64,000 nt of DNA, from contig JAPOVP010000170.1 of assembly GCA_026708085.1 (NCBI GenBank), forward strand, positions 1 through 64,000, read 5' to 3'. The DNA is from Caldilineaceae bacterium. GTDB taxonomy: Bacteria; Chloroflexota; Anaerolineae; Caldilineales; Caldilineaceae. A program made the position numbers and the translations under genes. Position 1 is the stretch's first letter. The number at the start of each line of letters is the position of its first letter. Below are positions 1 to 61,000 of the stretch, one piece after another. A model generated the notes under the pieces. That model ran no database searches and was not told where the DNA came from. It saw only the letters and a program-made list of their open reading frames with translations.

Positions 1-56
1 CCACTGACCACTGACCACTGACCACTGACCACTGACCACTGACCACTGACCACTGC
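1..56. repeat. Heptamer satellite (CCACTGA)n
   Basis: Seven perfect tandem copies of CCACTGA fill positions 1-49, and a degenerate eighth copy (CCACTGC) leads into the GCAG that opens the dispersed repeat. The array starts at the window edge, so its true length is unknown. Shorter, imperfect arrays of the same heptamer precede two other copies of the dispersed repeat, at 30824 and 60724. No coding potential is seen. Confidence 0.95.
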
Positions 57-385
57 AGTTCCGGCCGGTCGGGCCTTCGGCCCTCCCTTGTGCGGGGGGG
101 TCCCCCCCGCAACGCCCCCTTTCCTAAAACCTCGCGCCGCAGCAAGTGGGAGGGCAATACGAAATCGGCAGCCCGCGGCGCCCCGCGCTTCCCCCTACAC
201 CGCCTCTTGACCAGGTTCGAATGCGTGCCGGCGCAGGCTTGGAAGGCGGGGCAACTCCCAATTGCGCCCAACGTTCACGGCGACGACCATCAAGAGCCGG
301 CCATAGAAATCCTGAAAGTAAATTCCGTTATTCCTGAACTGGGCAGACCCCACTCTCTACGTTCCCAGAACATGACTTGGCAGAT
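57..385 (+). repeat. Dispersed intergenic repeat, copy A
   Basis: The core has a first hairpin (GGGCC 71-75, loop TTC, GGCCC 79-83), the conserved spacer TCCCTTGT, and a second hairpin with a nine-base stem (92-100 pairing with 102-110), followed by AACGCCCCC. To the right, the sequence aligns by eye with copy B at 36530-36885 over about 300 bases, with blocks such as CCTCGCGCCG, GGGCAATACGAA and CCAGAACATG in the same order. ORFs predicted here follow the repeat and are not believed. Right end approximate. Confidence 0.85.
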
Positions 386-498
386 ACGACTGCAGATTAA
401 TCTTCGGTCGCGCGTAAAACGTCGGGTATACTGAAGCGCGAAATCGCCGGCGCTCATAAGGTCAAGCCACAGTCGAACCGCTTCGCAAGAGCAACCCT

Positions 499-1344
499 AT
501 GCCGCATATTCTGATCACAGGCGCAAATGGCCAGCTCGGACAGGCCCTGACAACCCATCTCGAACCCACCGCCAAACTGACATGCTGGACACGCCCCCAC
601 TACGACATTGCCGACCCGGCGATTGCCGACGTTGTGGCAGAAACCAAACCGGATGTCGTCGTGAATGCTGCCGCATGGACTGACGTAGACGGAGCCGAAG
701 CGGCTCCGCAATTCGCCTTCAACGTCAATGCCCTTGGTCCCAAATACCTGGCGGAAGGCTGCGCCCGCTGCGACGGAACGCTCGTACAGATAAGTACCAA
801 TGAAGTATTCGCCGGTGAGCCGGGCCGCTTCTACCACGAATTCGAACAGACCTCTCCCGGCAGTGTCTACGCCCGGAGCAAGGCAGCCGGGGAAGTGGCC
901 GCAGCTACAGCCCTGGACCGCCTCTTCATCGTGAGGGTGGCGTGGCTCTACAGCGCCGGTGCTAGCAACTTTCCTGCCAGGATCAGCGCCGCGGCAGACC
1001 GCCACGGCGCTCTACGCGTTGTGAGTGACGAATTCGGCAATCCGACCTACGCCCCGGACGTAGCCGCCGCCGTCGCAAAACTGATCGAGTCGCAGCGCTA
1101 CGGCATCTACCATCTCGTAAACGATGGCTGGGCTAGCCGTTACGAATGGGCGGTCGAACTGATGCGCCTGACCGGACGCGAGGCACTACCCGTCGATCCA
1201 ATCAGCGCCAATGAATGGCCGCGTCCAACGACCCCGCCTCCCCACGCGGTCCTCGTCAACCAGGCCGGAGCCGCTCTCGGCATTGCCCTTCGCGACTGGC
1301 GTGATGCCCTGCATGAATATGTGCAATCGGAATTCAACAAATGA
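499..1344 (+). CDS. rmlD: dTDP-4-dehydrorhamnose reductase-like (RmlD) SDR protein
   Basis: 281 residues, the usual length for RmlD, which uses NADPH to reduce dTDP-4-keto-rhamnose in the last step of dTDP-rhamnose synthesis. Visible features: an N-terminal Rossmann nucleotide site GANGQLG (residues 8-14), an ISTNEVF strand (98-104) at the usual STDYVF position, and the catalytic YxxxK as Tyr124/Lys128. The start is the ATG at 499, after a weak GAGCAA; a possible -10 TATACT lies at 427-432. A glycosyltransferase follows 13 bp downstream, which suggests a cell-surface polysaccharide unit. The other rml genes are not in view, so the exact nucleotide-sugar substrate is inferred from family only; a methionine adenosyltransferase regulatory-subunit-like reductase is an alternative. 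Confidence 0.8.
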   Translation: MPHILITGANGQLGQALTTHLEPTAKLTCWTRPHYDIADPAIADVVAETKPDVVVNAAAWTDVDGAEAAPQFAFNVNALGPKYLAEGCARCDGTLVQISTNEVFAGEPGRFYHEFEQTSPGSVYARSKAAGEVAAATALDRLFIVRVAWLYSAGASNFPARISAAADRHGALRVVSDEFGNPTYAPDVAAAVAKLIESQRYGIYHLVNDGWASRYEWAVELMRLTGREALPVDPISANEWPRPTTPPPHAVLVNQAGAALGIALRDWRDALHEYVQSEFNK

Positions 1345-1357
1345 AATAGGATGAGTC

Positions 1358-2353
1358 ATGATTGAGAACGGTGACAGGCGAAGCGCCGCCCAGAAGCCTG
1401 AGCAAACCCATCAACCCCCATTCTTTTCGGTACTCATTCCCAATTATAACGGTCTCCGTCACCTGCCCGACCTGTTTACCGGCCTGAATTCACAGCTGTT
1501 TACCGACTTTGAAGTCATCTTCGCCGACGACGCCAGTAGCGACGGCTCCGTGCAATGGGTGCAGGACAATGCCCGCCAGGCGCGTGTACTCCCCAGCCAC
1601 GAAAACCACGGATTCGTCGCCTCCGTCAACATGGCAGCCCGCGCCGCACGCGGCCGGTTTATCGTTCTCCTGAACAATGACACACAGCCCGCTCCGGAGT
1701 TCCTGGCCGAGCTGGCCAAAACCATCTGCTCACACCCAAGGGCGGGGATTGTAGCCGCCAAGCTACTTCTGTTCGATGAACGCGACCGCATTCATACAGC
1801 TGGCGACATGATGGGGCGGGACGGGATTCCCCGGAATCGTGGTGTTTGGGCCATCGACAGCGGCCAGTTTGACAACTCGGACGAAGTGTTCGGCGGCTGC
1901 GGCGGTGCGATGGCCGTGCGCCGGGAGCTTTGGGAAGCCCTCCACGGTTTCGATGAGGAATTCTGGATGTATATCGAGGACGTAGACCTCTCGTTTCGGG
2001 CTCAACTCTTGGGCTGGCAGACGGCATTTGCACCGGCCGCGCGTGTCTACCATAAACTTGGAGGAAGTGGCGGCGACGAACTCAGCAGCTTCTACGTCGG
2101 TCGCAACACCATCTGGACTCTGGCCAAGAACATGCCGACCTCTCTCCTCCTGGACCACGCCCCGCAGATCGCTGGCGCACAGCTCTCGATCGCGTTTGAC
2201 GCGCTGCGCAACTGTCGGGGCAACTCAGCCCGCGCCCGCATAAGGGGCCAGGTAGCGGGCCTTCTCGGCCTTCCGCGCGTACTCCAGAAACGCGCCGTGG
2301 TCCAGTCCCGCAAACGGCTCCACGATGCCGAAATCGACCGTCTACTGATCTGA
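1358..2353 (+). CDS. Glycosyltransferase family 2 (rhamnosyltransferase-like)
   Basis: 331 residues with a GT-A fold. The donor-binding start is FSVLIPNYNG (residues 23-32), followed by ADDAS (56-60), the metal-binding NND (106-108, in place of DxD), and the acceptor/catalytic region GGCGGAMAVRRELW...YIEDVDLSFR (179-214) typical of WcaE/RfbN-like enzymes. It transfers a sugar from a nucleotide donor onto a surface glycan; the sugar cannot be read from sequence. The start at 1358 has a good AGGATGA ribosome site, 13 bp after rmlD, so the two are probably co-transcribed. No membrane segments are obvious. It ends convergently with the GNAT gene at 2426. Confidence 0.85.
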   Translation: MIENGDRRSAAQKPEQTHQPPFFSVLIPNYNGLRHLPDLFTGLNSQLFTDFEVIFADDASSDGSVQWVQDNARQARVLPSHENHGFVASVNMAARAARGRFIVLLNNDTQPAPEFLAELAKTICSHPRAGIVAAKLLLFDERDRIHTAGDMMGRDGIPRNRGVWAIDSGQFDNSDEVFGGCGGAMAVRRELWEALHGFDEEFWMYIEDVDLSFRAQLLGWQTAFAPAARVYHKLGGSGGDELSSFYVGRNTIWTLAKNMPTSLLLDHAPQIAGAQLSIAFDALRNCRGNSARARIRGQVAGLLGLPRVLQKRAVVQSRKRLHDAEIDRLLI

Positions 2354-2425
2354 TGTCTCACTATCTCTGCTGAGGTCTCTTGCTCTCCTGGGGGGAACCC
2401 TGCACAACGTACGCAAATCCGCATC

Positions 2426-3691
2426 TCACTCCGCGGGGGTGAACAGTCTGTCCAGTAACCTGTCATCCACGCGTTCCCCGACAACGTAGCGCCGCGTACC
2501 GGCGATCCCCGTACCAGTTATGTAATACCGCCCAGGCTGTGAACCGAGATAGTGTTCCAGCAGACGGTTTGTAACGTCGCGCCAGCGCTGTGCGGCCGGC
2601 ATGTCATCCCTCTGCAGCCTCACCCAGTCTGAGGGGACCTCGATGGCGATACGGGCGCTCTCGGCACCGAGTACGGGCGAACCTCCCCCTTCGTTGACAA
2701 CTGTCAAACCGGGATCTGCTTCGACATCCCAAGGTCGGAGCTGGCCGCTTCCCCTCAGTGCCCGCTGCACTCGCTTTGAACGAATCGCCCACAACAGGTT
2801 CAGTCTCGAGGCAACTACCCTGTTCAATTCATTACGAAATGAATACAGACTAGGCTGAAATTCGCAGGCAACTGCCCCCAATCGGGTGAAATTCAGCAGG
2901 GCATTGGCAAAGAGAAGCGGGTCGGTAGTCCAGTTGATCAGGTCAATGCCCATTTCAACAGCTTGGCGGGCCTGTAGCCGTTTCAACAACTGGCCGATCC
3001 GGCGCCTGCGCTTGCCGGGGGCCACCGCCAGCAGCTGTGATTCCAGCTGCAGGTCCTGGCGATATATGTCCAGCCCCGCACCCGGCGGACCGGCAGGAAT
3101 CCGAAAAAACCCCAACAGGAACCCCGCCAGTTCTCCGTCTACGCGGGCCACCAACGAGCAACCCATGCCCCCGTCGTCGCTATGCAAATCGCTGGGATAA
3201 AGCCCGTCCGGCGCGCTGTGCCAGATCGACCGCTGCATCCTGCGAATCTCGGCTGCCTCTTCCGCGTCAGGTCGTCCGCAGTCTACGCCTTCAACATGAA
3301 TGTGCGTGGGCGTGAAAGTGTGGTCCCCTTCTGGGAGGTAGAAGCAGGTCTTTTGCTCCGGAGGTAGTATCTCCCCGACTGCCCTCGATACTGCGTCGGC
3401 GTCAAGACCACCTGAACCGGCAACATGTTCGTATCGCAGCGTAAAAGTGGCGCCATCCGCGGAGGCGTGCCGTGGTAGAAGAAACGCGTCCCCGCATGGA
3501 GACGCCACCTTCCCGCCCTCGTCTTGATAGAGAGTAATGCAGGCTCCACCGATTTTAGGTAGAACCGCCTCCAGAAAGTGATGGGGTAGCAGCGTTGGCC
3601 GCTCCCCCAGCCGCCTTCTTATCTCGCGCAGCAGGTCCGGCCAGTCGGCGGACGATGAGTCAATTCGCTTCGCCCAAACGGAACGACTCAT
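2426..3691 (-). CDS. GNAT-superfamily acetyltransferase-like protein (COG3375-type)
   Basis: 421 residues from the ATG at 3691, which overlaps the stop of the upstream gene as ATGA; a start 10 codons earlier (3721) is possible but would lose this coupling. The middle of the protein carries the GNAT core: ARVDGELAGFLLGFF, then QLLAVAPGKRRRRIGQLLKRLQ (the acetyl-CoA loop, R/Q-x-x-G-x-G/A region), then INWTTDPLLFANALLNFTRLGAVACEF, a signature of the COG3375 group. The roughly 100 residues before this core are not recognised. COG3375 proteins are poorly characterised and no substrate is known, so the function is unknown beyond probable acyl-CoA binding. Coupled translation with a second GNAT suggests the two act together. 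Confidence 0.7.
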   Translation of the reverse strand: MSRSVWAKRIDSSSADWPDLLREIRRRLGERPTLLPHHFLEAVLPKIGGACITLYQDEGGKVASPCGDAFLLPRHASADGATFTLRYEHVAGSGGLDADAVSRAVGEILPPEQKTCFYLPEGDHTFTPTHIHVEGVDCGRPDAEEAAEIRRMQRSIWHSAPDGLYPSDLHSDDGGMGCSLVARVDGELAGFLLGFFRIPAGPPGAGLDIYRQDLQLESQLLAVAPGKRRRRIGQLLKRLQARQAVEMGIDLINWTTDPLLFANALLNFTRLGAVACEFQPSLYSFRNELNRVVASRLNLLWAIRSKRVQRALRGSGQLRPWDVEADPGLTVVNEGGGSPVLGAESARIAIEVPSDWVRLQRDDMPAAQRWRDVTNRLLEHYLGSQPGRYYITGTGIAGTRRYVVGERVDDRLLDRLFTPAE

Positions 3692-4245
3692 CCGTTTCCC
3701 ACTCCATAGCGCTGCTGCCACTCCTCAACCGTCATGCCGTAGAAAAACTCGTCCAGGAATCGCCCGTCCGTAAATATCGCCCTTCGCACAGCGCCTTCGC
3801 GCACAAAACCCAGCCCCTCATGCAGGGCACGCGAGCTGGTGTTTTCACTGTGCATCTGAACGTTCACCTTCTGGTAGCGCAGCTCCTGAAAGTAGTAGCG
3901 TAGTATGAGCAGTATAGCCGCCGCCGCGTAGCCCTTGCGGCGTTGAGAGGCTTCAACGCCCAACCCATACCTGAATACTCCGTTTCTGGGATGGCAATTG
4001 TGCGTATGTATAAATCCGACTGGCGTTCCTTCTGAATCTTCGATGACCCAACTGAAGGAGTCGTGCGCCATCTTCTTTTTCGACTCGGCGGCAGCCCAAT
4101 CTCGCACCTGGGAAAGAGAAACTGGCGGCCAGACGAATTCGAGATTCCGTGCCATCTCGCTGTCCTGGTTCCAGCGCCAGAAAGTGTCTCCGTCCTCCGG
4201 CTCCACCCCTCGCAGTCGGATCAGCTCAGTCTGCCAGTAGTTCAT
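3688..4245 (-). CDS. RimJ/RimL-type GNAT N-acetyltransferase
   Basis: 185 residues from the ATG at 4245 (MNYWQTELIRLRG..., the usual beginning of this family; GGGGTGAAA just upstream). The longer open frame to 4392 has no ribosome site and its extra 49 residues look non-coding. The fold shows LIRLRGVEPED at strand 1, FSWVIEDSEGTPVGFIHTH, the acetyl-CoA motif GLGVEASQRRKGYAAAAILLIL and NVQMHSENTSSRALHEGLGFVREG. The family acetylates protein N-termini, antibiotics or small amines; the substrate here is unknown. Its stop overlaps the next gene's start by 4 bp. Confidence 0.8.
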   Translation of the reverse strand: MNYWQTELIRLRGVEPEDGDTFWRWNQDSEMARNLEFVWPPVSLSQVRDWAAAESKKKMAHDSFSWVIEDSEGTPVGFIHTHNCHPRNGVFRYGLGVEASQRRKGYAAAAILLILRYYFQELRYQKVNVQMHSENTSSRALHEGLGFVREGAVRRAIFTDGRFLDEFFYGMTVEEWQQRYGVGNG

Positions 4246-4522
4246 CTTTTCACCCCGTGAGACCTCTTTTCGCAACAGGAGACTGCTCTTGATCCCGTCT
4301 GAAGAGTTTGAATCTTTTGAAAATGGACTTTGCTTCAGGAGGCCCCATCGACGGGTACGCAACACGCAAGAAATACGAGTGCATGGCTGCACTCGCTGGT
4401 GGCGGCACTTTGGCCGATTTCGAATTTTCCGTAGATATTTGCGGCGCCATGAAGAGGTTCAGGCTCTGGCATGATGGGCCGGCTTGCACTACCAACTGCG
4501 CGGCTTAGCCTCAATTGCCCGA

Positions 4523-4903
4523 TCATGCGGCCGGAGGCTTGGATTCTGTCGCCTTTTGGGGCGGCTCGGTGTCATCAACTCGCGACTGGCGCCGTGCCGG
4601 TGTCATCCCGTCCATCGAACTCTTCAATTCCGACCTGATCACCTGTACGGAACGTACGATGCCAGCCAGTCTACTGCTCGTAGAAATCAGGGGCGAAATG
4701 ATACTCGTGCTCACAAACTCAGCCGAACCTTTGACCGTGCCGACTGTCTCCTGGCCGTCTCGGATAACAGGTTTCACTTCGGCCTGTATCATCTTGATCA
4801 AACGCCAGACCTGCCAGATTAGAACCACCAGCAGACCGTTCATTATGAGAATCTCTAACGCAACGAGAATGATGGCGATATCCCGAACTGTGGCGCTGAC
4901 CAC
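4523..4903 (-). CDS. Small single-pass membrane protein, DUF948-like
   Basis: 126 residues. The GTG start at 4903 has a strong AAGGAGA site. One hydrophobic helix (about residues 8-33, IAIILVALEILIMNGLLVVLIWQVWRL with charged flanks) is followed by an amphipathic stretch with V/T/S spacing and a charged, proline-rich tail. This layout resembles DUF948/YoxC-type proteins, where a membrane anchor is followed by a helix that may pack on the membrane or self-associate. No catalytic motif. A second small membrane protein lies 85 bp downstream. Function unknown. Confidence 0.6.
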   Translation of the reverse strand: MVSATVRDIAIILVALEILIMNGLLVVLIWQVWRLIKMIQAEVKPVIRDGQETVGTVKGSAEFVSTSIISPLISTSSRLAGIVRSVQVIRSELKSSMDGMTPARRQSRVDDTEPPQKATESKPPAA

Positions 4904-4988
4904 GGCGCTCTCCTTTTGCGATCGGCACAGTTTACTACGTCCGCTTCATCCAGCGGCTGCACCGGCCTCCCTGCCCAGAAGACTCGCA

Positions 4989-5222
4989 CTAGTGTGTGAC
5001 AACCCGGACCAGGATTAAGGCAATTATGGATGCCAGTGTCGCCTCCAGCAGGCTAAGTTGCCCAATTTGCCACGTATCCCACTGCAACGTCTGGCTCACC
5101 CAATGTCCCAGCACAAATCCCACACCAGCCGCAATCAGATACTGCGGGAGTTCCCGCAGTGATCGGCCCGTCCACAGGTGGAATAAGCTGGCATAGCCGG
5201 TGACAAGCAAAGTAGCCAGCAA
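4989..5222 (-). CDS. Small hydrophobic protein, 2-3 membrane helices
   Basis: 77 residues with hydrophobic stretches at about 1-15, 26-44 and 52-74 (LPQYLIAAGVGFVLGHWVSQ and LEATLASIIALILVRVV). The TTG start at 5222 lacks a clear ribosome site, so the start is uncertain. It lies between mnmA (66 bp upstream) and the DUF948-like gene on the same strand. No family recognised; a membrane protein of unknown role. Confidence 0.5.
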   Translation of the reverse strand: MLATLLVTGYASLFHLWTGRSLRELPQYLIAAGVGFVLGHWVSQTLQWDTWQIGQLSLLEATLASIIALILVRVVTH

Positions 5223-5288
5223 TACCGACGGACTGAGAACTAGTGACGCGAAAGGCGTTCCGGAAACCAGTCGTGCACCTCCTCGGTC

Positions 5289-6479
5289 TCAGTTTAGGGA
5301 AACTCGATGTGCCGGCGTCTTTTCAGTTTCTGCCGGATCTTCGCCGAGATTCCCTCTTTCAATCAGCCCTCCCCCAAGGCAGAGGGGGCCGTCGTAAAAC
5401 ACGACTCCTTGACCCGGGCTGATTCCGCGCGCCGGCTTTTCGAACGCGACCCGCACACTGCCATCCTCTTGAGAATAGACCCAACAGTCTAGAGGTTGCC
5501 CCGAATAGCGGATCTGGCACTGGACACGACTGCCCGAGGGAACCGGCCTGCCTGTTGTCCAGCTCACACTTGCAGCCGTCAGTTCAGACCTGCCTAGCGC
5601 CTGGAGCGGCCCTACGATTAGCTGGTTGCGACTATGCTCCAACGCAACGATGTACATGGGGGCCTCCGTCCCACTCAGGCCCAAGCCCCGACGCTGTCCC
5701 ACCGTATAGTTCGGCAACCCTTCATGCTCGCCCAGCACGTTTCCCTCTACATCCACGATTTCGCCTGCTGTCATCGCGTCTGCGGCCCAATCCGAAAGAA
5801 AGCGCCGGTAGTCGTCATCCATTACAAAGCAAAGGTCCATCGAATCATGCTTGCTGTGAATGGGCAGACCCCGCGCAGCCGCCATCTGCCGCACCTCTTC
5901 TTTTGCGAATTCGCCGACAGGGAATAGCAGGTCGCGCAACTCTGCCTGGCCCAGCACGCTAAGGACGTAGGACTGGTCCTTATGCACATCAACGCCGCGC
6001 AACAGTTGAATTCTTCCATCCTGCTGTCTACGCAATCGGGCGTAGTGGCCGGTGGCCAGGAAGTCGGCGCCCAGCCGCCGGGCATAGTTGAGCAAATAAT
6101 CGAAGCGGATGTGCCGGTTGCAGGCAAGGCAAGGGTTGGGCGTCAGCCCGCTACTGTATCCCTCGATAAAGAGATCCACCACCTTCTCTTTGAAGGGCCG
6201 CTCGACATTGATCAGATAGAACGGCATGCCCAACCGGTCCGCAACGCGGCGCGCGTCCTCCACGCTCTCCTCGTCACAGCACTTGTTTCCAGATCCTTCA
6301 CCGGCTGCCGCCTCCGCCCACAACCGCATCATCACGCCGATACATCGATAGCCCTGCTCTGTAAGCAAAGCTGCCGTGACCGAACTGTCGACGCCGCCGC
6401 TCATGGCGACGACGACGGTCGTCTCAGATGGAGGCAGTTCATGCTTGTTTCTAGTGGTCTTCCCAATCATGCAGCGCAT
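5289..6479 (-). CDS. mnmA: tRNA-specific 2-thiouridylase MnmA
   Basis: 396 residues. MnmA activates U34 of tRNA(Lys, Glu, Gln) with ATP and inserts sulfur relayed from a cysteine desulfurase. Visible: PP-loop SGGVDSS (residues 27-33), the catalytic Cys in NPCLACN (Cys117) and its partner in DSMDLCFV (Cys217), plus [11 protein letters not shown] and DQSYVLSVL, the tRNA/ATP-contacting blocks. The C-terminal beta-barrel domain follows. The length is slightly above the usual 360-380 because of about 20 poorly conserved residues at each end; the ATG at codon 4 is an alternative start. A likely sulfur donor, a cysteine desulfurase, is encoded at 17810, not adjacent. Confidence 0.95.
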
Positions 6480-6590
6480 TTTAACACAGTCACCGATTTT
6501 CCGTCATGGCTGTGGCAATACGCGCGTGTCCTGCTTCTCTTCATCCGGTCAACGATTCCGCCGCGTACAAAACTGGCGACTTGATCACAA

Positions 6591-6599
6591 TGGTATAAT
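6591..6599 (+). promoter_or_regulatory. Extended -10 promoter for the FmdE-like gene
   Basis: TGGTATAAT is a perfect extended -10 (TGnTATAAT) 93 bp before the FmdE-like start. No good -35 is present at the right spacing, as is usual for extended -10 promoters. The transcript would carry a leader of about 85 nt that includes a strong AAGGAGGTG ribosome site. No known riboswitch fold was recognised. Confidence 0.55.
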
Positions 6600-6691
6600 G
6601 GGTCGAGGTCGCTGCATCAGAGCGCGTTAAGCGATCAGACAGCCTCCAGCATGGCCTGTAGTTAGAGTTCCGCACCCAAGGAGGTGCGCCA

Positions 6692-7294: not shown

Positions 7295-7404
7295 GAGACG
7301 AAAGGGTAAGAGGCAGTTCAACAAGGAGGGCTGCCAAAGCTGTGTGCCCAAGAGTCAGTCGAATTGAGCGAGTGCCTGGAGACTCTGGTCTGGCCACTTA
7401 TTCG

Positions 7405-7447: not shown

Positions 7448-7458
7448 TTGCGTAACCG

Positions 7459-9248: not shown

Positions 9249-10943
<1,695 letters not shown>

Positions 10944-22984: not shown

Positions 22985-23255
22985 TCTTTTGGGCGGTCGG
23001 CCGCAAGCGGCCTCCCTTGTGCAGGGGCTCCGCCCCCGCAACGCCCCCGGCCCTGCTCGCGCCGCAGTGAGATTGAGGGCAATGTGACGGTGTCCGCCCG
23101 CGGCGGCCGTGCTTCACCCCATCCCCCGTCCCGCTCCCGTAGAGGCGGGCCTTGTGCCTGCCCTTTCCCTTCCTAAAAGCCCGCAATAAATTTCGGCCGC
23201 CCATGGCTTGACTACCGCGCCAGACCGACCTCACCCCATATCTGGGACGCACCCT
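22985..23255 (+). repeat. Dispersed intergenic repeat, copy C
   Basis: Hairpin 1 is GGCCG (22999-23003), CAAG loop, CGGCC (23008-23012); hairpin 2 pairs GGGGC (23024-23028) with GCCCC (23032-23036). The stem sequences differ from copies A, B and D but still pair. No heptamer array lies in front. Its right part shares a CGCGCCGCAG...GAGGGCAAT block with copy A and a TTGTGCCTGCC block with copy E, and ends near ATCTGGGACGCACC. Confidence 0.8.
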
Positions 23256-29442: not shown

Positions 29443-29547
29443 TACATTACTCCTATCAGTTTCCCAACCCTCAGGCAACGCCGCAACATTGGGACTTCAC
29501 GCGTCGCCGCGTCCAATGGAGCGTCTACTCTCAGGCCAACCCACCGT

Positions 29548-29640
29548 AGGGGCGCCCCTTGTGGGCGACCTCTCGGTTGCCGCACACTATCGGGCGCCTT
29601 ACGACACTCTGTTTCCCTCGTGGGTGGGCAACCGAATAGG
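29548..29640. repeat. Hairpin-rich intergenic element, second type
   Basis: GGGGCGCCCC at 29549-29558 is a perfect palindrome, followed by TTGTGGGCGACC. Inverted arms TCGGTTGCC (29573-29581) and GGCAACCGA (29627-29635) flank 45 bases. The sequence resembles short palindromic repeats of the REP/BIME kind and differs from the five-copy family here. Only one copy is seen in the window, so repeat status is inferred from structure. Confidence 0.5.
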
Positions 29641-30441: not shown

Positions 30442-30729
30442 AATAACCCTCCTCGCTTGGAAGAATGGAGAAACTCGCAGTGACTGGCTCTACGATCAGG
30501 AAACTGAGTCTGTCTTTGAATCGGATGCAGGAGAATAAGCAATTGTACCAAATGGGCACCTGGAACGAAGTGTCATCCCGATAGTAGCTGTAGAACCCTG
30601 CTCTGTCAAAGAAATACGCGCCAGTACCTGCACTCTCGAACCCGACTGGTGGGGCCTGTTCCCTGGTGCAACCTGACCTCCGTTGCCTTCAACTGAGGAA
30701 AAGCAGCAGTGACTCCGACTCTACGCGTG
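30442..30729. other. Intergenic stretch before repeat copy D
   Basis: Nearly 290 bp between the aldolase and the repeat. No supported gene, terminator or tRNA was seen. Confidence 0.5.
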
Positions 30730-31190
30730 CATCCAAATATTGGTGTGAACTTTCCCATTCCTCGGGCAGCGGCGGAGCCATGTCCAGTCCGCTTTCAACC
30801 CTGAATTAGGTGAAGCGCCCCCTCTGACCACTAACCACTAACCACTGCAGTTCTGGGCGGTCGGGCCTATTCGGCCCTCCCTTGTGCGGGGGCTCCGCCC
30901 CCGCAACGCCCCCTCTCCTACAACATGCCTCGCCGACCTGGTGTCTCTATTCGTAACAGGTGCCCACCCGAAAGAGCTCCGCCGGACCACGTCCCGCCAG
31001 CCCTATGTATTCCCCGTAGGGGCCCGCAATGTGCCTGCCCTCGCACGCCCAACTGACGGACTCCACCGTAAGGCCAGGCCGGGGGCCTGTACTGCGTCTC
31101 GCCATAAGACGTTAACTGATTTCAGCCACCGCCGCCATGGATTCCCCGCCAGACTGCTCCCACCCCAGATCTGGGATGCATCCACTCCAT
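30730..31190 (+). repeat. Dispersed intergenic repeat, copy D
   Basis: The left part from CGTGCATCC (30736) to about 30810 aligns by eye with the left part of copy E at about 60625-60715 (shared order: GTGCATCC, CGGAGCC, AGTC, TTCAA). Then come heptamers CTGACCA CTAACCA CTAACCA (30824-30844), CTGCAG, hairpin 1 GGGCC/GGCCC (30863-30877) and hairpin 2 (30886-30904). The right part ends around CAGATCTGGGATGCATCC (31165-31185), another GGATGCATCC palindrome. Ends approximate. Confidence 0.82.
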
Positions 31191-36278: not shown

Positions 36279-36529
36279 CGTCTCCTAAGTCTACCATAGC
36301 CAAAAGGGTTGATTACCGGGAAATATCACTTTCCCAGTAGCATTCCCGAATACCGTAGGCAGCCCGCCCCTCGATGCAACCGAACCGTAGCGCATTCGAA
36401 CGGTATTCGTAGACACTCTGACTATCTGATGAACGAAGTAACCGCCAAATCATCGCCAAGTGGCGACCCCGATTCCTGCAAACGAGGATACCTCTCTCCA
36501 CTTCATTCCAATTCTCCTTAAAACGCCGC

Positions 36530-36885
36530 CGCTACTAACTCCTGGCCCCCAGCCCCTGGCCCCTGTAGCTTTGGGCGGTCGGGCCTATTCGGCCCTCCCT
36601 TGTGCGGGGGCTCCGCCCCCGCAACGCCCCCTCTCCTACAACCTCGCGCCGTAGCAGGTGTGTGGGCAATACGAAGTTGGCGTCCCGCGCCGGCCCGCGC
36701 TTCCCCCCGCCTCTTGGCAGATTCCGAAAACGTGCCAGCGCAGGCAAGACTGGCGAGGCAGCTACCATACATCCCCACGTTCACCGCTATGACCATCGGG
36801 AGCCCGCTACAGAGATTCTGACGGTACTTTGCGCTATTCTCAATCCAGGCAGACAGCACACAGAACACCCAGAACATGGCTTAGT
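36530..36885 (+). repeat. Dispersed intergenic repeat, copy B
   Basis: A degenerate heptamer-like run (CTCCTGG CCCCCAG CCCCTGG CCCCTG, 36539-36565) replaces the CTGACCA array. Hairpin 1 is GGGCC (36581-36585)/GGCCC (36591-36595), hairpin 2 36604-36622. The right part matches copy A in the same order for about 250 bp up to CCCAGAACATGGCTTAG near 36885. Long ORFs in both strands here are repeat artefacts. Confidence 0.85.
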
Positions 36886-37204
36886 AGTTACACAATGTCT
36901 AAGAAGGAATACTCTGGAAGCAATGAGGAGCGTGAAGATTCCGGGAGTGGAGTACGCTAACGACGCACTGGCAATGCGCTGACTACAAACCGACAATGGG
37001 ATTTTTATCGTTCAAATTTGAAGTTCTGATCGGAAAGTATGCGGCGGGAGAGGCACAGAACGCCTGCCTCTGAGACTTACGCAAAGGCGTCTGCGAAACG
37101 AATCGAGGATGACTTTGACGCAACCTGCCCTACCATTTGGCGCGACAATCCGGCGAAAGGGACACGGCCAGTTCGCAGTCGGACAAGAACATTCTAAAAT
37201 ATTC
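36886..37204. other. Intergenic stretch after repeat copy B
   Basis: About 320 bp up to the iolG stop. No supported gene and no good terminator hairpin for the inositol cluster was found. Confidence 0.5.
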
Positions 37205-53734: not shown

Positions 53735-53930
53735 TTTCCGGCGCGGCCTCCCGGTAGAAAGGCGGTCCTTCACAGTCCACGGCCAGCCTGGCAGTCCGTG
53801 TAGACGACTGAGAGAGGTTTCTCAATCATGTCCGCCCGTCGAGGAAAAATGCTGTTTCCCTATTTGCCCGCCATAAAAGCACAGCAGCACCGATATGTCA
53901 ATCGAGAACGAAAAAAGCACTCCAAAAAGC

Positions 53931-53959
53931 TTGACACAGATTGCACAGTAAACGATAAT
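53931..53959 (+). promoter_or_regulatory. Promoter for the sugar dehydratase gene
   Basis: Consensus TTGACA (53931-53936), 17 bp, GATAAT (53954-53959), 29 bp before the ATG. A clear sigma-70 type promoter. Confidence 0.8.
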
Positions 53960-53988
53960 TCCTGTAATCCGCTACAGGAGCAAATCCC

Positions 53989-55128: not shown

Positions 55129-55170
55129 ACCTCTCTACATCTGAAGGAGTGTCTGAACCTCTATTCCCTT

Positions 55171-55199
55171 TTGGGCCGCACTGTGCCATGAAGTATACT
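55171..55199 (+). promoter_or_regulatory. Promoter for the interrupted gene
   Basis: TTGGGC (55171-55176), 17 bp, TATACT (55194-55199), 88 bp before ATG 55287. Confidence 0.55.
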
Positions 55200-55241
55200 G
55201 TTGGAAAGAACGCTTGTGCGAACCTCGGCTTGTGCCATCTC

Positions 55242-55257
55242 TTTGGCAATTGCCAAA
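55242..55257. promoter_or_regulatory. Perfect 16-bp palindrome, operator candidate
   Basis: TTTGGCAATTGCCAAA is a perfect palindrome between the promoter at 55171 and the start at 55287, a place where a repressor dimer would block transcription. No regulator gene is adjacent. Confidence 0.4.
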
Positions 55258-55286
55258 ACGGCTACTGTACTGATTGAGTTCGGGAA

Positions 55287-56018
55287 ATGACGACAACCGC
55301 TATCAATACAATTGAAGATCCTGTGCGGATCATGGACAATCACCCTGAGTGGGTCGAAGCCATGCGCGTTAGGCTGCTGTCGAGGGAAGTCCTCGAACTT
55401 CCCCAAACGATGGCTAGGCTAACCGAAACCGTGGATAGCTTTGACGCCTCCACAATCAAGCGCTTGGACGCAATAGAAGTTCGTTAGGCTCAGCATTACA
55501 CCAGGTCTGACTCAGTGGACGCCAGAATCGACGCAGCTGATTCCTTATTCGAGTCAGTGATGAACAGCATACAGAAACTTCGCAATGAAATCGCCCCCAT
55601 TACGGCCGCTCACGTGCGAAATGCCGCGATTGATGACGCCCTTCTGATTGCCGACGATCTGGGCCTACGTAATCCCAGGACTCTGACCCGAGAAGAGTTG
55701 TTGGAGTTTTCCGAGTCTGCCGATACATCAGACATTTCCACAAGCGATCTGAGAAGCTTTCGCCGCGCCCACCTCATATTGGAGGCAGCGGACAAAGACG
55801 GAGAAACATGCTACGTCGCCGTGGAAGTCTCCTTTACCGCCAATGGCCGGGACACCGTCAGAGCGATCCGAAACGCCGACTTCATGCAGCGGTTTACAGG
55901 AAAGCGCTCGATTGCTGCAGTTGCCGGCCTGTACAATGACAACCGGATCAACGAAGCATTGGAGTCTGGGTCGGTCTTCTGGCACCAGCTTGACCCTGAG
56001 CAACTTGAGGTCGAATAG
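55287..56018 (+). pseudogene. Coiled-coil plus C-terminal domain protein, broken by one amber codon
   Basis: One frame runs from ATG 55287 to the stop at 56018 and contains a single TAG at 55485-55487. The first part (66 residues: NTIEDPVRIMDNHPEWVEAMRVRLLSREVLELPQTMARLTETVDSF) and the second (from about 55488: a short coiled segment, then ITAAHVRNAAIDDALLIADDLGLRNPRTLTREELLEFS...CYVAVEVSFTANGRDTVRAIRNADFMQRFTGKRSIAAVAGLYNDNRI) belong together: the same domain order occurs in a family I recall as common in related uncultured bacteria, with a DUF3782-like end that resembles restriction-type folds. The middle coiled coil seems shortened. A GTG at 55515 could still give a separate C-terminal protein. 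Function unknown. Confidence 0.72.
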
Positions 56019-56158
56019 CGCTGCTCAGAGGATTCTCCTCACAGCCACTTTTCCCCGCCAATCCCATTTGCCGGCATCAGGCCCATCCCACCAAATGGTC
56101 TGAGCATCTTCCATCCCAACAGGTAGGACACAGTTGGCAATCACGAAGGAACGGATCC

Positions 56159-57139
56159 ATGCACGCCATAGAAGTCGAACATAATCAATCAGGTCATCAA
56201 CTCGTCTGGCAGGAGGTGGAGGACCCCGTTGCCCAGCCGGGCGAAGTCCTCGTCTCCATCCACGCAACTACGCTCAATCGCGCCGATCTGTCACAGGCCG
56301 AAGGAAACTACCCTCCGCCCCCAGGTGCCCCCAATATCATGGGCCTGGACATGTCTGGAGAAATCCTCGAACTTGGTGATGGCGTAGAACGATGGCAGGT
56401 GGGCGACCAGGCTTGCGCACTCCTCGCCGGCGGCGGCTATGCCGAGAAAGTAGCCGTCGACCAGCGCCTCCTGATTCCAATTCCCACCGGCTGGTCCTTC
56501 GAAGAAGCAGCCTGCCTCCCCGAGGTCTATCTGACCGCCTACGTCAATATCTTCATGGAAGCCGGCTTCCAGGCCGGTGAGGCCATCCTCATCCACGGTG
56601 GTGCAAGCGGGGTAGGAACTGCCGCAATTCAGCTGGCAAAGAGTGCTGGAGGGCGCGTCATCACGACCGCCGGTCGCCCCGACAAAGTGCAGACCTGCCA
56701 GAACCAGGGCGCCGATCTGGCCATCAACTATCGGACTGAGGACTTCGTCGCCCGAACGCTGGATTACACCGATGGCGCAGGTGTCGATGTTATTCTCGAC
56801 ATGGTAGGGGCTGAATACCTGGAGCGCAATGTCAGCCTGCTGAAGGTGAGAGGTCGCGTGGTATTCATCGCCACGCTGGGCGGTTCAGAAGCAACCGTGG
56901 ACATCAGGCAGCTCATGGGCAAGCGCGCTCGCCTGATCGGCTCCGTTCTTCGCGCCCGGCCCGTAGAAGAAAAAGCTGAGATTATTCGGCGTTTCCGGCA
57001 GCAGTTTTGGGGGCAAATCGAGGAGGGCTCGATACATCCGGTTATTGACAAAGTGATGCCCGTTGCCGAAGCCCACGCCGCCCACGATCACATGAGAGAC
57101 TACCAAAACATCGGCAAAATAGTGCTCAAGGTGCGCTGA
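56159..57139 (+). CDS. qor: Zinc-independent quinone oxidoreductase (MDR family)
   Basis: 326 residues with AAGGAA before ATG 56159. NADPH-dependent reductase of quinones or enones. Visible: TTLNRADLSQAEGNYPPPPGAPNIMGLDMSGEIL, the dinucleotide loop ILIHGGASGVGTAAIQLAKSAG, DVILDMVGAEYLERNVSLLKVRGRVVFIATLGG. No zinc ligands, as expected. It resembles the TP53I3/PIG3-like subgroup. Convergent with the phosphatase gene, overlapping it by 14 bp at the 3' ends. Confidence 0.9.
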   Translation: MHAIEVEHNQSGHQLVWQEVEDPVAQPGEVLVSIHATTLNRADLSQAEGNYPPPPGAPNIMGLDMSGEILELGDGVERWQVGDQACALLAGGGYAEKVAVDQRLLIPIPTGWSFEEAACLPEVYLTAYVNIFMEAGFQAGEAILIHGGASGVGTAAIQLAKSAGGRVITTAGRPDKVQTCQNQGADLAINYRTEDFVARTLDYTDGAGVDVILDMVGAEYLERNVSLLKVRGRVVFIATLGGSEATVDIRQLMGKRARLIGSVLRARPVEEKAEIIRRFRQQFWGQIEEGSIHPVIDKVMPVAEAHAAHDHMRDYQNIGKIVLKVR

Positions 57140-57563
57140 GTTCGTCCAATAGCGCCAGTACCGCACTCTCAATCGCGGCCAGCCCCGAATCTGCGTCCGC
57201 CACATCGAGGTCGTAAATGCTCCAGTAGCGGACCCGTTCCGTCCATTCCGGAAAGCGCGCCGCCATCAGGGGCCGGTGCTCCACCTCATTCATGGCAATC
57301 GTCAACTCAGCTGTCATCAGGTCTGACGACTGCAGGTCCATCGGCAGTCGAAGTCGTTCGCGCGGCGTCATCCCAAGGCTGTTCAGCCGGTCCAGCGCGT
57401 GCCTCGACATGAAGCCAAGATTCTCCAGGCTTGGCTGCAGCCCGCGACTGGTCGCCTGCCACGCCAGTTGCCTTTGCCGGGCCTGTTCGTTGAAAAAATG
57501 CTCGGCAAATCGGCTGCGGTAATAGTTTCCCGTGCACAGAAACAGTACAGTGGCGGCCATCAA
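57126..57563 (-). CDS. Low-molecular-weight protein phosphatase-like
   Basis: 145 residues. VLFLCTGNYYRSRFAEHFF carries the phosphatase loop C-x5-R (Cys10 to Arg16, Ser17 next), the same as LMW-PTP and arsenate reductases; the acid loop near the end reads SIYDLDVADAD, where a DP pair would be usual, so the general acid is uncertain. It might be a protein-tyrosine/arginine phosphatase. Third gene of a unit with the phosphofructokinase and methyltransferase (15 bp gap). Confidence 0.75.
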   Translation of the reverse strand: MMAATVLFLCTGNYYRSRFAEHFFNEQARQRQLAWQATSRGLQPSLENLGFMSRHALDRLNSLGMTPRERLRLPMDLQSSDLMTAELTIAMNEVEHRPLMAARFPEWTERVRYWSIYDLDVADADSGLAAIESAVLALLDELSAP

Positions 57564-57578
57564 TCCCGACCCCGTTCC

Positions 57579-58220
57579 CTAACTGTGATTCCGAAGCGAA
57601 ATCGCCTGAAAACTATCGGAGCTTGACTCTTCTCGCCCTATCACCTCAAAGGAAAGTATACGGAAGAAGCGTTCCAGGATCAGCTGCAACTCGTCATCAG
57701 TGTAAAGTGCATAAAAGCGTTTGGGCTCATAGAAGTCCGCTTCCCGTACACCTTCAAAGCTTCGACCTCCGTGCATGACGATGTATATCAGCCCCCCAGG
57801 CTTCACGACCCGCCTGATCTCTCGCAGCACATCCGCGAAGTCCGCCTTCGGCACGTGCAGGAGACAGTTCTGGGCGAACAGCCCGTCAAAATGTCCGTCC
57901 GGAAAATCCAGTCGCAGAAAGTCCATCTCGTACGCTTCCAGCCCCTTCTCCCGGCACAGGCGCACCATCTCCGGGGATAGATCTGTGCACACCACCTTCA
58001 TTCCCCCGTCCTGGAAGAATCGACCTGCCTGCCCCGGACCGGCCCCGATCTCCAGAAGTGAAGTCATGCCTTCGGCCTGCAAACCGCGCAAATACTGCGA
58101 CCAGAGTGCCACCTTCCATTCCTGGACCGGATTCGCGTCCCGTTGTTCGGCTTTCGCATCGTAAGCGCGCTTTAGTTCAGCAGAGACGCTGAAATAGTCT
58201 GTCACCGAACTCCGCTCCAC
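57579..58220 (-). CDS. SAM-dependent methyltransferase, class I
   Basis: 213 residues from a GTG at 58220 with GGGAGA upstream, nine bases past the phosphofructokinase stop. Motif I LLEIGAGPGQAGRFFQ, motif II VVCTDLSPEMVRLCREKG, DGLFAQNCLLHVPKADFADVLREIRRVVKPGGLIYIVMHGG. The Methyltransf_11/25 type; substrate unknown. Confidence 0.88.
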   Translation of the reverse strand: MERSSVTDYFSVSAELKRAYDAKAEQRDANPVQEWKVALWSQYLRGLQAEGMTSLLEIGAGPGQAGRFFQDGGMKVVCTDLSPEMVRLCREKGLEAYEMDFLRLDFPDGHFDGLFAQNCLLHVPKADFADVLREIRRVVKPGGLIYIVMHGGRSFEGVREADFYEPKRFYALYTDDELQLILERFFRILSFEVIGREESSSDSFQAISLRNHS

Positions 58221-58229
58221 TGTTCTCCC

Positions 58230-60509
58230 TCAGAAGGGTTCGGCCTGGCCCGGATCCGACTGTTCGAAAAACCCCGGCCCGGGCTGGGCCAGCATGCGCG
58301 CCAAAGGCCGCAGCTCCATCCACCACTGCTCAAGGGGCCTTTGATGAACCTCGTCCATCAGCCTGGGAATCCGATAGAGCGGGGTGGAGGTTACGTCGCC
58401 CTCCTCAATCCCTAAACAGACTGCCCCCACATCCGCAAAACGCCGTGCTCCCCGCCGGCTCGCTACCTCTTCAATGATTTGAACCGCTTCCCAGGCAAGA
58501 CGCGCGGCCAGGATGCGGTCGAACGGGGACGGGTTGCCGCCCTGCTGTAGGTGCCCCAGAATAGACTGGCGCACCTCGAAAAGGTCACCCCCCTCCTCTT
58601 CGAAAAGAGCGGAAATGAAGGAAGTCGTGTAGAAAGAGTTTGCAGCCTCGTTCCGTATCATAAGCCCCAGACGCTTGCCTTGCTGAAATCCCTGCTTTAG
58701 GAGCTCAATGTCTCGTTCGAGGTCCTTGAGTGTTATCCCCTCCTCATGCAGATAGACGCGTTCGGCGCCCGTTGCAATAGCGCTCATCAGGGCCAGGTAC
58801 CCGCAGAATCGTCCCATCACTTCGACTATGAAACACCTGTTCAGGGCCACTGCAGACTGCTTTATCTTGTCTACCACTTCCACGATGCTGTTCAGGGCCG
58901 TGTCAGCGCCGATACTCAGCTCCGAGCCAGGCAGGTTGTTGTTGATGCTGGCAGGAATGCAGATTATAGGAATGTCAAACGCCGGAAAGTTTTGCCGCTC
59001 TTCGTACAATTTGTGTGCGGCATGATACCCGGCCCACCCCCCAATCATCACTATCGCATCCACCTGACGTTTCTCGAGCACCTGCGCTGCCGCGTACAAC
59101 TCCGCACCCTCCGGCGTTTTGCGGCTGCTCCCCAGTTCCGACCCGCCGGTTGGCGCCCAACCGTTGACCGTCATCCAGTTCATCTCTTGGATGTCGTCGT
59201 CTATCAAGCCCCGGAATCCCCACTTGACACCCAGCGGAATATGGCCGTTGTCCTCCAGCATGCGTACGACCGCACGCGTCGCCGCGTTCATTCCCGGCGC
59301 CGGTGCCCCGCCCGTCATCACGGCAACCCGCAATCGTCGCTTATTCGGTTGCGGCGGGCGCGGGTTGGCGCGAATCAGCGTTCGCAGAATGCGGAAGGAG
59401 TCCTTGTAGGCCTTGCCCCGGTACTCCATTGCCTCATCAAACATGCATTCGTGGATACATCTGCCAACTTTCAGCGTCTGGTCCACGCACTCCGCCAGCG
59501 AACTGTGAACAATCTTGTTGTTCTCTATTCCAATCAGTACTGCTTCATCGCTTGGTCCGGCCTTCAGGACCGCTTCCGCTGCCGCCGCCCCCAGCAACGT
59601 CGCCATGACCCGGTCGGAGGCGCTGGGAGAGCCACCCCGCTGCACGTGACCTAGAACTGTCACCCGTGCCTCTTCGCCGAGATACTTGGTTAGCACCTCT
59701 TCTACATAGCCGCTGGAGATCGGGTTGCCTTGCCGGTCCTGTGCCCCCTCTGCCACCACCACAATACTGTCCCGCCGGCCCATCTCTCGGCCCTGGCGTA
59801 GTATCGAGCACATCCTCTCTTCCCACGCATCCAGATTCGGAGGGCTCTCCGGAATCAGCGCGAAATCTGCCCCCGAAGCCAGCGCGCCCATCAGCGCCAA
59901 ATGGCCGCAATGATGACCCATCACCTCGACCACAAAAGTACGCTGGTGGCTGGCCGCCGTGCTCGTGATCGCGTCAAGCGCTTCGGTGATGCGGTGTAGC
60001 GCGGAGTCCGTTCCAATCGAATTGTCCGTTCCGAACATGTCATTGTCGATCGAACCGACCAGACCCGCGACCGCAAGGAATCCGTACTCTTCCTTGACCG
60101 AAGGCCCCAGGCGCCCCTCGTCCGCCAGCTCCTCCACCAACGAGCCCCACTCCTCCCGCAGGACCTGCGCGCCGGTCAAGCTCCCGTCGCCGCCGATCAC
60201 GATCAGGCGGTTTATCCCTTGGAGAAGCAAATTGTATACCGCCTCTTTTCGCCCATCCCTCTTTAAAAAACCCGGGCTTCTGGCCGTCCCCAGCAATGTT
60301 CCACCCTGTTGGAGCACGCCTCCCACCGAGTCCCAGTGAAAGGGCCGTATCAGGCTTCCGCCCTCAATCATCCCCTGAAACCCTTCGAAAATCCCGTATA
60401 CTTCCGCCCTCCTCTCCAACGCCGCGCGCACCGCCGAACGTACAGCCGCATTCATGCCCTGCGCGTCGCCTCCGCTGGTGAGGACCCCAAGACGAACTGT
60501 CTTTGCCAT
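58230..60509 (-). CDS. pfkA: Tandem-domain 6-phosphofructokinase (fused, eukaryote-like layout)
   Basis: 759 residues from ATG 60509 (GGAGG eight bases upstream), twice the normal bacterial size of about 320-360. The N-half keeps the active site: GVLTSGGDAQGMNAA, GGDGS (106-110) and GLVGSIDND (Asp155 and Asp157, the E. coli Asp127/Asp129 positions), VEVMGHHCGHLAL, and VTVLGHVQRGGSPSASDR. The C-half has the same fold but lost these residues: GGWAG in place of GGDGS and PASINNNLPGSE in place of SIDND. As in eukaryotic PFK, the N-half is probably catalytic and the C-half regulatory or ligand-binding. Convincing as a PFK; PPi versus ATP use and effectors unknown. Transcribed with a methyltransferase and a phosphatase. 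Confidence 0.93.
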   Translation of the reverse strand: MAKTVRLGVLTSGGDAQGMNAAVRSAVRAALERRAEVYGIFEGFQGMIEGGSLIRPFHWDSVGGVLQQGGTLLGTARSPGFLKRDGRKEAVYNLLLQGINRLIVIGGDGSLTGAQVLREEWGSLVEELADEGRLGPSVKEEYGFLAVAGLVGSIDNDMFGTDNSIGTDSALHRITEALDAITSTAASHQRTFVVEVMGHHCGHLALMGALASGADFALIPESPPNLDAWEERMCSILRQGREMGRRDSIVVVAEGAQDRQGNPISSGYVEEVLTKYLGEEARVTVLGHVQRGGSPSASDRVMATLLGAAAAEAVLKAGPSDEAVLIGIENNKIVHSSLAECVDQTLKVGRCIHECMFDEAMEYRGKAYKDSFRILRTLIRANPRPPQPNKRRLRVAVMTGGAPAPGMNAATRAVVRMLEDNGHIPLGVKWGFRGLIDDDIQEMNWMTVNGWAPTGGSELGSSRKTPEGAELYAAAQVLEKRQVDAIVMIGGWAGYHAAHKLYEERQNFPAFDIPIICIPASINNNLPGSELSIGADTALNSIVEVVDKIKQSAVALNRCFIVEVMGRFCGYLALMSAIATGAERVYLHEEGITLKDLERDIELLKQGFQQGKRLGLMIRNEAANSFYTTSFISALFEEEGGDLFEVRQSILGHLQQGGNPSPFDRILAARLAWEAVQIIEEVASRRGARRFADVGAVCLGIEEGDVTSTPLYRIPRLMDEVHQRPLEQWWMELRPLARMLAQPGPGFFEQSDPGQAEPF

Positions 60510-60619
60510 GTGCCGCCCTCCTATCGCGGCAAACTGCCGCCCTGCGTTTCTCCGCAGTGGCGCCATCAGTTTCTCAAAGATTATAGCATGTAGCAGGCTA
60601 TTTTCGTACCCCGTTTTTC

Positions 60620-61000
60620 AGCAAGGGTGCATCCCCATTTTGGAGGCGGACATCCCTTACCTCTGGCAGCAGCGGAGCCGCAGTCACTCCGAGTTCAAAT
60701 CTGAGGCAGGGATTGCATAGTCTCTGACAACTGACCACTAACTACTGACCACTGCAGTTCCGGGCGGTCGGGCGCAAGCGCCATCCCTTGTACGGGGGCT
60801 CTGCCCCCGCAACGCCCCCCCTCCTACAACATGGCTCGACGACCTGGTGCCTCCAATCCACCGCCGCGCCATGCCACCGGGTGCCCTACCCCCTCCCGAA
60901 CTGATCAGGCAGACTTTGTGCCTGCCCGCGTTCGCCCTGCAACTGAGATGCACACCCCAAATTCGGGTGTATCCCGTCCTGTTGTCTCCCTGCAGCCCGC
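60620..61000 (+). repeat. Dispersed intergenic repeat, copy E
   Basis: Left part from GGGTGCATCCC (60625-60635) aligned with copy D, then heptamers CTGACAA CTGACCA CTAACTA CTGACCA (60724-60751), CTGCAG, hairpin 1 GGCG (60771-60774)/CGCC (60779-60782) with CAAG loop, TCCCTTGT, hairpin 2 (60792-60810) and AACGCCCCCC. Right part has TTTGTGCCTGCCCGC and ends near CAAATTCGGGTGTATCCC (60958-60975). No gene between pfkA and the gene at 61276. Confidence 0.85.

Follow-up and report, generated by a model that had tools for sequence, protein, structure and literature searches.

Heptameric intergenic repeats of cyanobacteria are named STRR, IS200/IS605 elements have a Y1 transposase and leave no target duplication, and the orientation of insertion sequences and the clamp is reportedly the subject of a separate study. 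Several systems oriented with respect to replication have been described: in the available part of one source, Tn7, IS200/IS605 and several clamp-binding IS families are given as having fork-dependent orientation (PMC5371812), and the accessible portions of two others describe some REP tandem arrays in P. fluorescens as running forward around 2 Mbp and in reverse around 4 Mbp (PMC3116915), and KOPS and similar motifs as oriented from origin to terminus in each chromosome arm (PMC2680272). For Microcystis, the portion of the report at hand states that, among 24 mapped heptamer sets, the eight located between stop codons all face the same way on the chromosome, and it proposes a genome-wide check (PMC4679880). 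The CTGACCA heptamers found here beside the repeat cores are of the same kind as the cyanobacterial STRR, GGGAATC of Xanthomonas and TAACTGA; however, they are polar, whereas the Xanthomonas repeats showed no leading or lagging preference in the part of the source available (PMC4692102).

The window, i.e., the whole stretch of 64,000 nucleotides analyzed here, belongs to the genome of a Caldilineaceae bacterium (source genome). Direct reading confirmed five core copies, A to E, at the places given in the earlier note and all on the plus strand, and the layout described there is kept in five of five copies, in the order hairpin 1, TCCCTTGT, hairpin 2, AACGCCCCC. The cores and the surrounding sequence of two MITE-like types, T1 and T2, are as follows:

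62..119, + strand: core A, preceded by CTGACCA heptamers and followed by T2-type sequence with a decayed right end at about 374-387; the left side ends at the contig start
22991..23048, + strand: core B, with stem 1 GGCCG/CGGCC, in a mosaic with T2-like sequence after the core and then a T1-like right end near 23244
30727..31181 (455 bp), + strand: MITE-like T1 element with core C, ends GTGCATCC...GGGATGCAT; its flanks match at 6/8 bases
30855..30913, + strand: core C, inside this T1 element
36438..36891, + strand: T2-type element with core D; its right end, 36878-36891, reads GGCTTAGTAGTTAC, and its left end was placed by eye and is tentative; no target duplication seen
36573..36631, + strand: core D, inside this T2-type element
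60627..60953 (327 bp), + strand: short inverted-repeat T1-type element with core E; no target duplication found
60762..60819, + strand: core E, inside this short T1-type element

The core represents a repeat family of 57-60 nt with hundreds of copies in the source genome, where TCCCTTGT was counted 366 times as compared to 104 for the reversed control and where at least 40 exact 66-mers were present among the matches listed. Of 17 genomes of the genus, 16 had core matches, as compared to none of 44 genomes outside it; the remaining congener, G004, had no core match and two matches to the heptamers. A T1 copy had no match in plasmid and phage collections, nor had the exact core pattern in viral contigs. 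The earlier remark that no named family came to mind for the repeat held up for RNA families: Rfam searches returned only a tRNA for the whole window at the gathering threshold and nothing around copy C at E up to 1, by which a known RNA family was ruled out as its identity.

The stem 1 variants had been read correctly but with the labels of B and C exchanged: GGGCC/GGCCC occurs in A, C, and D, and GGCCG/CGGCC in B. The inner pair of stem 2 is indeed G-C in A instead of the C-G of B to D, and E has C-G with a T on the loop side (CTCTG). Compensatory change, as claimed from these variants, was found to be real among 45 distinct cores picked by hand, with 97.0% of the cells paired and 40 double-change cells as compared to 14.0 in shuffles, but only three base pairs change on both sides, a number similar to the 2.8 of the shuffles (393 of 500 at least as high). 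The covariation, confined to three base pairs that change with the subfamily, is therefore weak evidence on its own. Of 45 aligned cores, 44 retain the linker, although the profile had itself been seeded with it. The identical copies C and D outperformed all of 200 shuffles in folding, whereas A, B, and E were unremarkable in this respect. An outer stem GGGCG/CGCCC closing a three-way junction was predicted, whole or in part, in four of five folds and was discarded as it is without compensatory change.

The orientation of the repeat follows the replication half of the chromosome and not transcription, so that the remark on the shared strand of the five copies proved to be central. In the complete genome of the relative G012, all 50 core matches listed (of 80) are on the plus strand at 0.11-2.68 Mb and on the minus strand elsewhere, and the remaining 30 comprise 3 forward and 27 reverse matches, which by that pattern leaves at most 3 exceptions among 80; GC skew switches sign in the same regions. 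Within the stretches around loci in G012, 41 of 42 cores were polar and 1 anti-oriented, and T1 ends were polar in 42, anti-oriented in 2 and unclear in 4 cases (n = 48), by a typing rule written after the list had been seen. In G015, a rearranged chromosome with many inverted blocks, core orientation tracks the local skew (51 polar, 6 anti-oriented, 10 at weak skew), and the source genome showed 26, 2, and 6 such cores, respectively. Away from cores, heptamer loci were polar in 15 of 15 and CTCCGTGG loci in 14 of 14 cases, and all polar repeat families examined share one direction, with the C-rich strand first. A transposon of G015, which we take to be IS5-like, served as control and was non-polar (4 same, 6 opposite, 1 mixed). 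That the majority of copies share one direction with respect to chromosome copying suggests that spread or survival of the repeat is tied to DNA replication.

As to the position of the origin, dnaA and parS-like sites lie near the change from plus to minus skew in both G012 and G015: in G012, dnaA is at 5.20 Mb and the parS-like sites are at 347 and 359 kb; in G015, the corresponding positions are 4.85 Mb and 4.59-4.60 Mb. Against this placement, the usual sign of the skew would put the origin at the other skew change. Also against it, the parS pattern matched once or twice in each genome, and its controls gave counts of 1 and 1 in G012, 0 in G015, and 2 and 2 in G004; no ParB family match was obtained among 10 proteins scanned beside one parS-like site, and no dif-like site was found in the examined stretches of G012.

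Many copies sit in inverted-repeat elements with 8-bp target duplications, which the earlier note had missed. Complete T1 elements measure about 455-465 bp and have the terminal inverted repeats GTGCATCCCA...TGGGATGCAC, T2 elements measure about 285-480 bp and have GTAACTACTCAGCC...GGCTTAGTAGTTAC, and both types have such duplications, perfect in several T1 copies and, for T2, matching at 6 or more of 8 bases in 56 of 107 candidate pairs as compared to 39 of 2140 random flank pairs. The T2 ends resemble those of IS66 (GTAA at the start, 8-bp duplication), and T2 may be an IS66-derived MITE. Among the 143 cores in the examined stretches of G012, G015, and the source genome, 67 lie between a recognizable T1 or T2 pair of ends (up to 420 bases), 76 are without visible ends, and 34 have an intact duplication (at least 7/8 bases); in G012 recognizable ends accompany 11 of 42 cores. 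Mosaic elements have the core at the joint of differing left and right modules. The T1 element at 30727-31181 of the window is absent from the same locus in most relatives compared, e.g., G002 and G012. Pairs with an intact duplication span 284-480 bp, too short to encode a transposase, and the longer pairs among those listed comprise one composite of 727 bp and two copies with an IS frame of 308 codons inside; no autonomous partner with T1 or T2 ends was found in 3.55 Mb of loci, where pairs with at least 7/8 duplication bases were considered. The IS5-like element was rejected as T1 mobilizer because its ends differ from those of T1 and the 1377-bp T1 pair around it turned out to be a T1 copy into which this 1.02-kb IS had inserted. 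These elements resemble MITEs in being short, in their inverted-repeat ends and 8-bp target duplications, and in their many copies, but differ by the strong replication orientation bias and by one twin-hairpin module common to two element types.

A structured RNA or a terminator read with the neighbouring genes would fit the folding of C and D and the compensated stems, and the gene on the 5' side of source genome cores is opposite in 16 and same-sense in 5 cases (p 0.03). However, same-sense and opposite genes number 10 and 17 on the 5' side and 13 and 14 on the 3' side in G012, and 15 and 17 and 13 and 19, respectively, in G015, by which neighbouring genes were ruled out as setters of the orientation in these two genomes, with the source genome weakly biased on the 5' side; moreover, Rfam gave no match and no T run follows the hairpin. 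As orientation in G012 tracks the replication half instead of the genes nearby, a folded RNA is unsupported and, in our view, scarcely credible; from the earlier proposal of selection on, or copying of, a folded RNA or single-stranded DNA, the supported part is a conserved, foldable element within a non-coding repeat of many copies. An IS200/IS605-like single-strand transposon or a RAYT-like REP system would likewise explain two intergenic hairpins and a fork-dependent orientation such as the available part of the source describes for IS200/IS605 (PMC5371812). This is very improbable given the 8-bp target duplications and the Y1 transposase search that the suggestion of a REP-type mobilizer called for: PF01797 had no match in any of the 17 genomes of the genus, whereas the same search was positive in 5 of 14 controls including E. 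coli. In hairpins and fork-dependent orientation the repeat is thus similar to IS200/IS605 and REP/REPIN-RAYT systems, from which it differs in these two respects.

Random insertion followed by fast loss of wrong-way copies is conceivable though doubtful; in one orientation, the hairpins or the strand bias of the sequence might interfere with replication or segregation, or the motif might direct a DNA translocase as KOPS do. The common C-rich-first direction of the examined families and the conserved linker, in its linker-seeded profile, are in line with it, as is the fact that G012, where duplications are more degraded, is more polar than G015. By contrast, T2 copies with at least 7/8 duplication bases (20 polar, 4 anti-oriented, 5 at weak skew; binomial p 0.0015 for 20:4) and those with fewer (19, 3, and 1) do not differ in polarity (Fisher p 1.0), which favours bias at insertion over slow purging; furthermore, the IS5-like element is not polar and G015 tolerates many inverted blocks. 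Strong replichore polarity, as seen in G012, is a KOPS-like trait, but the plus copies listed there number 15, 12, and 6 by thirds from 0.08 to 2.72 Mb, a gradient that fits KOPS with an origin at 2.72 Mb but not with one near 0.08 Mb, and the repeat differs from KOPS as a 57-60 bp structured sequence, often in mobile elements, with no match in one congener. Since G004 lacks a core match and has two heptamer matches, a translocase-guide or segregation function is not essential to the genus. Spread without a transposase, through template switching that copies hairpins or lagging-strand fragments into further single-stranded gaps and preserves their orientation to the fork, appears unlikely. It would account for the polarity of heptamer arrays and other short repeats and of the 76 cores without visible inverted-repeat ends, and for the mosaic elements, but the precise ends of T1 and T2 and their 8-bp target duplications bear the mark of a transposase, and many of the short repeats adjoin T1 or T2 sequence, from which they may derive.

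We therefore tentatively prefer, at a probability of about 0.45, a MITE-borne hairpin module inserted in fork-dependent orientation by a putative transposase supplied in trans. According to this proposal, the core would be a stem-loop module often borne by short non-autonomous elements, T1 and T2, that multiplied within this genus of Caldilineaceae; the putative enzyme would favour one orientation with respect to the moving fork when it inserts them, as reported for TnsE of Tn7 and for sliding-clamp-binding transposases; the hairpins would act as DNA; and decay or rearrangement would explain the cores without visible ends. The likeness to the latter systems lies in the correlation of insertion orientation with replication direction, as given in the accessible part of PMC5371812, but those transposons carry their own transposase, whereas the elements here are tiny. 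Several observations count against this proposal. Ends are recognizable at fewer than half of the cores and at 11 of 42 in G012, yet 41 of 42 are polar there, and heptamers and CTCCGTGG away from cores are equally polar, which it does not cover unless they are remnants. Most duplications in G012 are degraded, and its higher polarity as compared to G015 could reflect purging over time; G015, however, is a rearranged chromosome as well. Moreover, anti-oriented copies with perfect duplications occur in G012 at 4,880,532 (read by eye; local skew near zero), in the source genome at C61 250,452 (both copies identical), and in G015 at 1,566,426, 1,842,041, and 5,472,104. Fast purging would be indistinguishable from insertion bias.

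Replication-related orientation bias was already known for some transposons and short guide motifs; here it is strong in miniature elements with inverted-repeat ends and target duplications, which might be expected to insert either way, and an IS of a relative, which is not polar, provides an internal control. Complete genomes with many copies allow the question of insertion bias versus selection to be asked. Together with GC skew, the repeats may serve as a compass that marks inverted pieces of a rearranged chromosome. It is possible, if rather unlikely, that in this lineage a genome-wide replication-coupled process places or maintains non-coding repeats of several unrelated families, whether or not they have transposon ends, in one direction per replication arm; if so, much of the repeated intergenic DNA would read one way from origin to terminus, and this would not be the property of one element.

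Five copies of the twin-hairpin core (57-60 nt) were confirmed by reading the window sequence, all on the plus strand and with the layout hairpin 1, sequence, hairpin 2, sequence, as the earlier note had described. They are placed as follows with respect to T1 and T2, two MITE-like inverted-repeat element types that often carry the core:

62-119, plus strand: core A, T2 right end
22991-23048, plus strand: core B, mosaic
30855-30913, plus strand: core C, inside a T1 element
36573-36631, plus strand: core D, T2 right end
60762-60819, plus strand: core E, inside a short T1 element

The described stem 1 variants are real, but the labels of B and C had been exchanged: GGCCG/CGGCC belongs to B and GGGCC/GGCCC to A, C and D. 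Among 45 distinct cores, hand-picked from 89 full-length ones and the window, 97.0% of cells pair and the covariation score was 0.140 as compared to 0.041 in shuffles. The claimed compensatory change is present, with 40 cells changed on both sides versus 14.0 in shuffles, but limited to three pairs (two in stem 1 and the inner pair of stem 2), which is no excess over the 2.8 of the shuffles; as both-side changes track a few subfamilies, they stand for a small number of events. In the outer stem that closes the structure, no compensation was seen.

In its own genome, TCCCTTGT was counted 366 times (reversed control, 104), and a 66-base stretch has at least 40 exact copies among the matches listed, which together indicate a family with copies in the hundreds; TCCCTTGT lies no more than about 30 bases from the start of several contigs. 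The 66-base query matched 16 of 61 genomes, namely its own and 15 of the 16 others of the genus, and found no match in 20 further genomes from the family or 24 from the class. A core pattern scan of named genomes gave at least 80 matches, those listed being all from Caldilineaceae. One congener with a complete genome, G004, lacks any core match and has just two heptamer hits, which makes the expansion lineage-specific. An Rfam search gave no match, a T1 copy had none among plasmids or phages, the exact core pattern had none among viral contigs, and the available parts of the literature gave no account of this repeat.

Core flanks are shared to about -140 and +330 bases and fall into types. T1 has the ends GTGCATCCCA...TGGGATGCAC, a complete length of about 455-465 bp and target duplications of 8 bp, which several copies show without a mismatch. 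For T2, with the ends GTAACTACTCAGCC...GGCTTAGTAGTTAC, the flanks of 56 of 107 candidate end pairs match at 6 or more of 8 bases, versus 39 of 2140 random pairs, and duplications are perfect in all 30 pairs among the matches listed. In the stretches examined, which come from three genomes, a recognisable end pair was seen around 67 of 143 cores and an intact duplication around 34: 11 and 1 of 42 in the complete relative G012, 41 and 24 of 67 in the rearranged relative G015, and 15 and 9 of 34 in the own genome. The locus of core C has an MFS gene that 16 of 17 genomes conserve well. In the adjacent intergenic space, the own genome and G006 have a core, G001 and G005, whose contigs end there, have T2 right ends, and neither was found in the remaining 12. 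Six genomes have a core near the gene beside copy E, and only in G013 (stretch L316, 2833-2889) is it reversed relative to that gene. Another hairpin-like repeat, GTAGGGGC...CTTGTG...GCCC, is also dispersed, both within T1 elements and away from cores (window 23136-23164, 29543-29571 and 31013-31041). Locally, cores can follow one another in tandem, as pairs or arrays spaced by about 170-200 bases and co-oriented where inspected (stretch L175, 1758-2306; G015, 175099 and 175299).

Core orientation follows the replication half. The 26-base core pattern has 80 matches in G012, 36 forward and 44 reverse (reversed control, 0): among the 50 listed, plus copies lie at 0.11-2.68 Mb and minus copies at 3.38-5.40 and 0.02-0.06 Mb, and the other 30, counted by strand only, are 3 forward and 27 reverse. 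GC skew there is negative at about 0.08-2.72 Mb, positive elsewhere and weak at about 5.25-0.1 Mb, and 41 of 42 cores in examined stretches agree with their half, the exception being at 4,880,665. By local skew, 51 cores were polar (in agreement), 6 anti (against) and 10 weak in G015, and 26, 2 and 6, respectively, in the own genome; scored without the weak class over fewer stretches, polar cores were 37/42 in G015, 29/34 in the own genome and 30/32 in G012. The window genes map in the same orientation to 1.97 and 2.00 Mb of G012, where plus is expected, as all five window copies are. The G015 chromosome (L127-L146, L332-L346) consists of blocks that are opposed to one another in both GC skew and repeat orientation, a patchwork like that left by many inversions. 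In both relatives, the plus-to-minus skew change has dnaA and parS-like sites nearby; were it the origin, the leading strand would be C-rich, contrary to the usual rule. Skew in G012 (L107-L126, L150-L169) is positive before and negative after this region, so that its sign would be inverted with respect to the common one if replication starts there.

Six motifs from the frequent words of G012 were mapped likewise, and polar loci were 15/15 for heptamers, 14/14 for CTCCGTGG, 15/16 for AACTGACTACTAA, 6/6 for GTAGGGGCAGGC, 8/8 for TTGCCGTTCTCC (largely the loci of CTCCGTGG) and 1/1 for TTCGCGTCCTT. A 17-base heptamer query gave 105 forward and 45 reverse matches, the 100 listed being all forward, in 34 places at 0.083-2.68 Mb; one array, in the element at 4.88 Mb, runs against the rule. 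For the 84 13-mers found at six or more loci away from cores, the majority share averaged 0.944, with a few non-polar G+C-rich words among them (for example 4:3, 3:3 and 2:4). In published accounts, Xanthomonas heptamers have no strand preference (PMC4692102), eight heptamer sets between stop codons are co-oriented in Microcystis (PMC4679880), and P. fluorescens has some REP arrays that run forward on one side and in reverse on the opposite one (PMC3116915).

Among 48 typed T1 ends of G012, 42 were polar, 2 anti and 4 unclear. T2 elements whose duplication matches at 7 or all 8 bases were 20 polar, 4 anti and 5 weak, and those with fewer 19, 3 and 1, one G012 row in this tally being a T1 at 4,880,532; the corresponding T1 counts were 2, 1 and 2 versus 7, 1 and 1. 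As a control served an element matching PF01609, which we take to be IS5-like, with 16 matches in G015 and none in G012: relative to cores within the same 20 kb, its 11 copies, a small sample, were 4 same, 6 opposite and 1 mixed. Several of these 1.02-kb copies (11 examined, e.g., stretch L333 near 9286-9798) sit in heptamer CTAA/TTAG sites or within T1/T2.

Young and old copies are equally polar, which favours insertion bias; rapid purging of wrong-orientation copies would look the same, and we consider it less likely, with a probability of about a quarter. Gene direction gives no explanation of core orientation in G012 or G015. Polarity extends to cores and short repeats that lack visible transposon ends, and an autonomous transposon partner was not found in the loci examined; both count against a MITE-based reading. 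A search of 17 genomes of the genus for a Y1 enzyme, following the REP-type mobiliser proposed earlier, found none. The best reading, with a probability of roughly 0.45, is that a transposase would insert the MITEs in a fork-dependent orientation, a behaviour reported for Tn7 with TnsE and for transposases that bind the clamp (PMC5371812).
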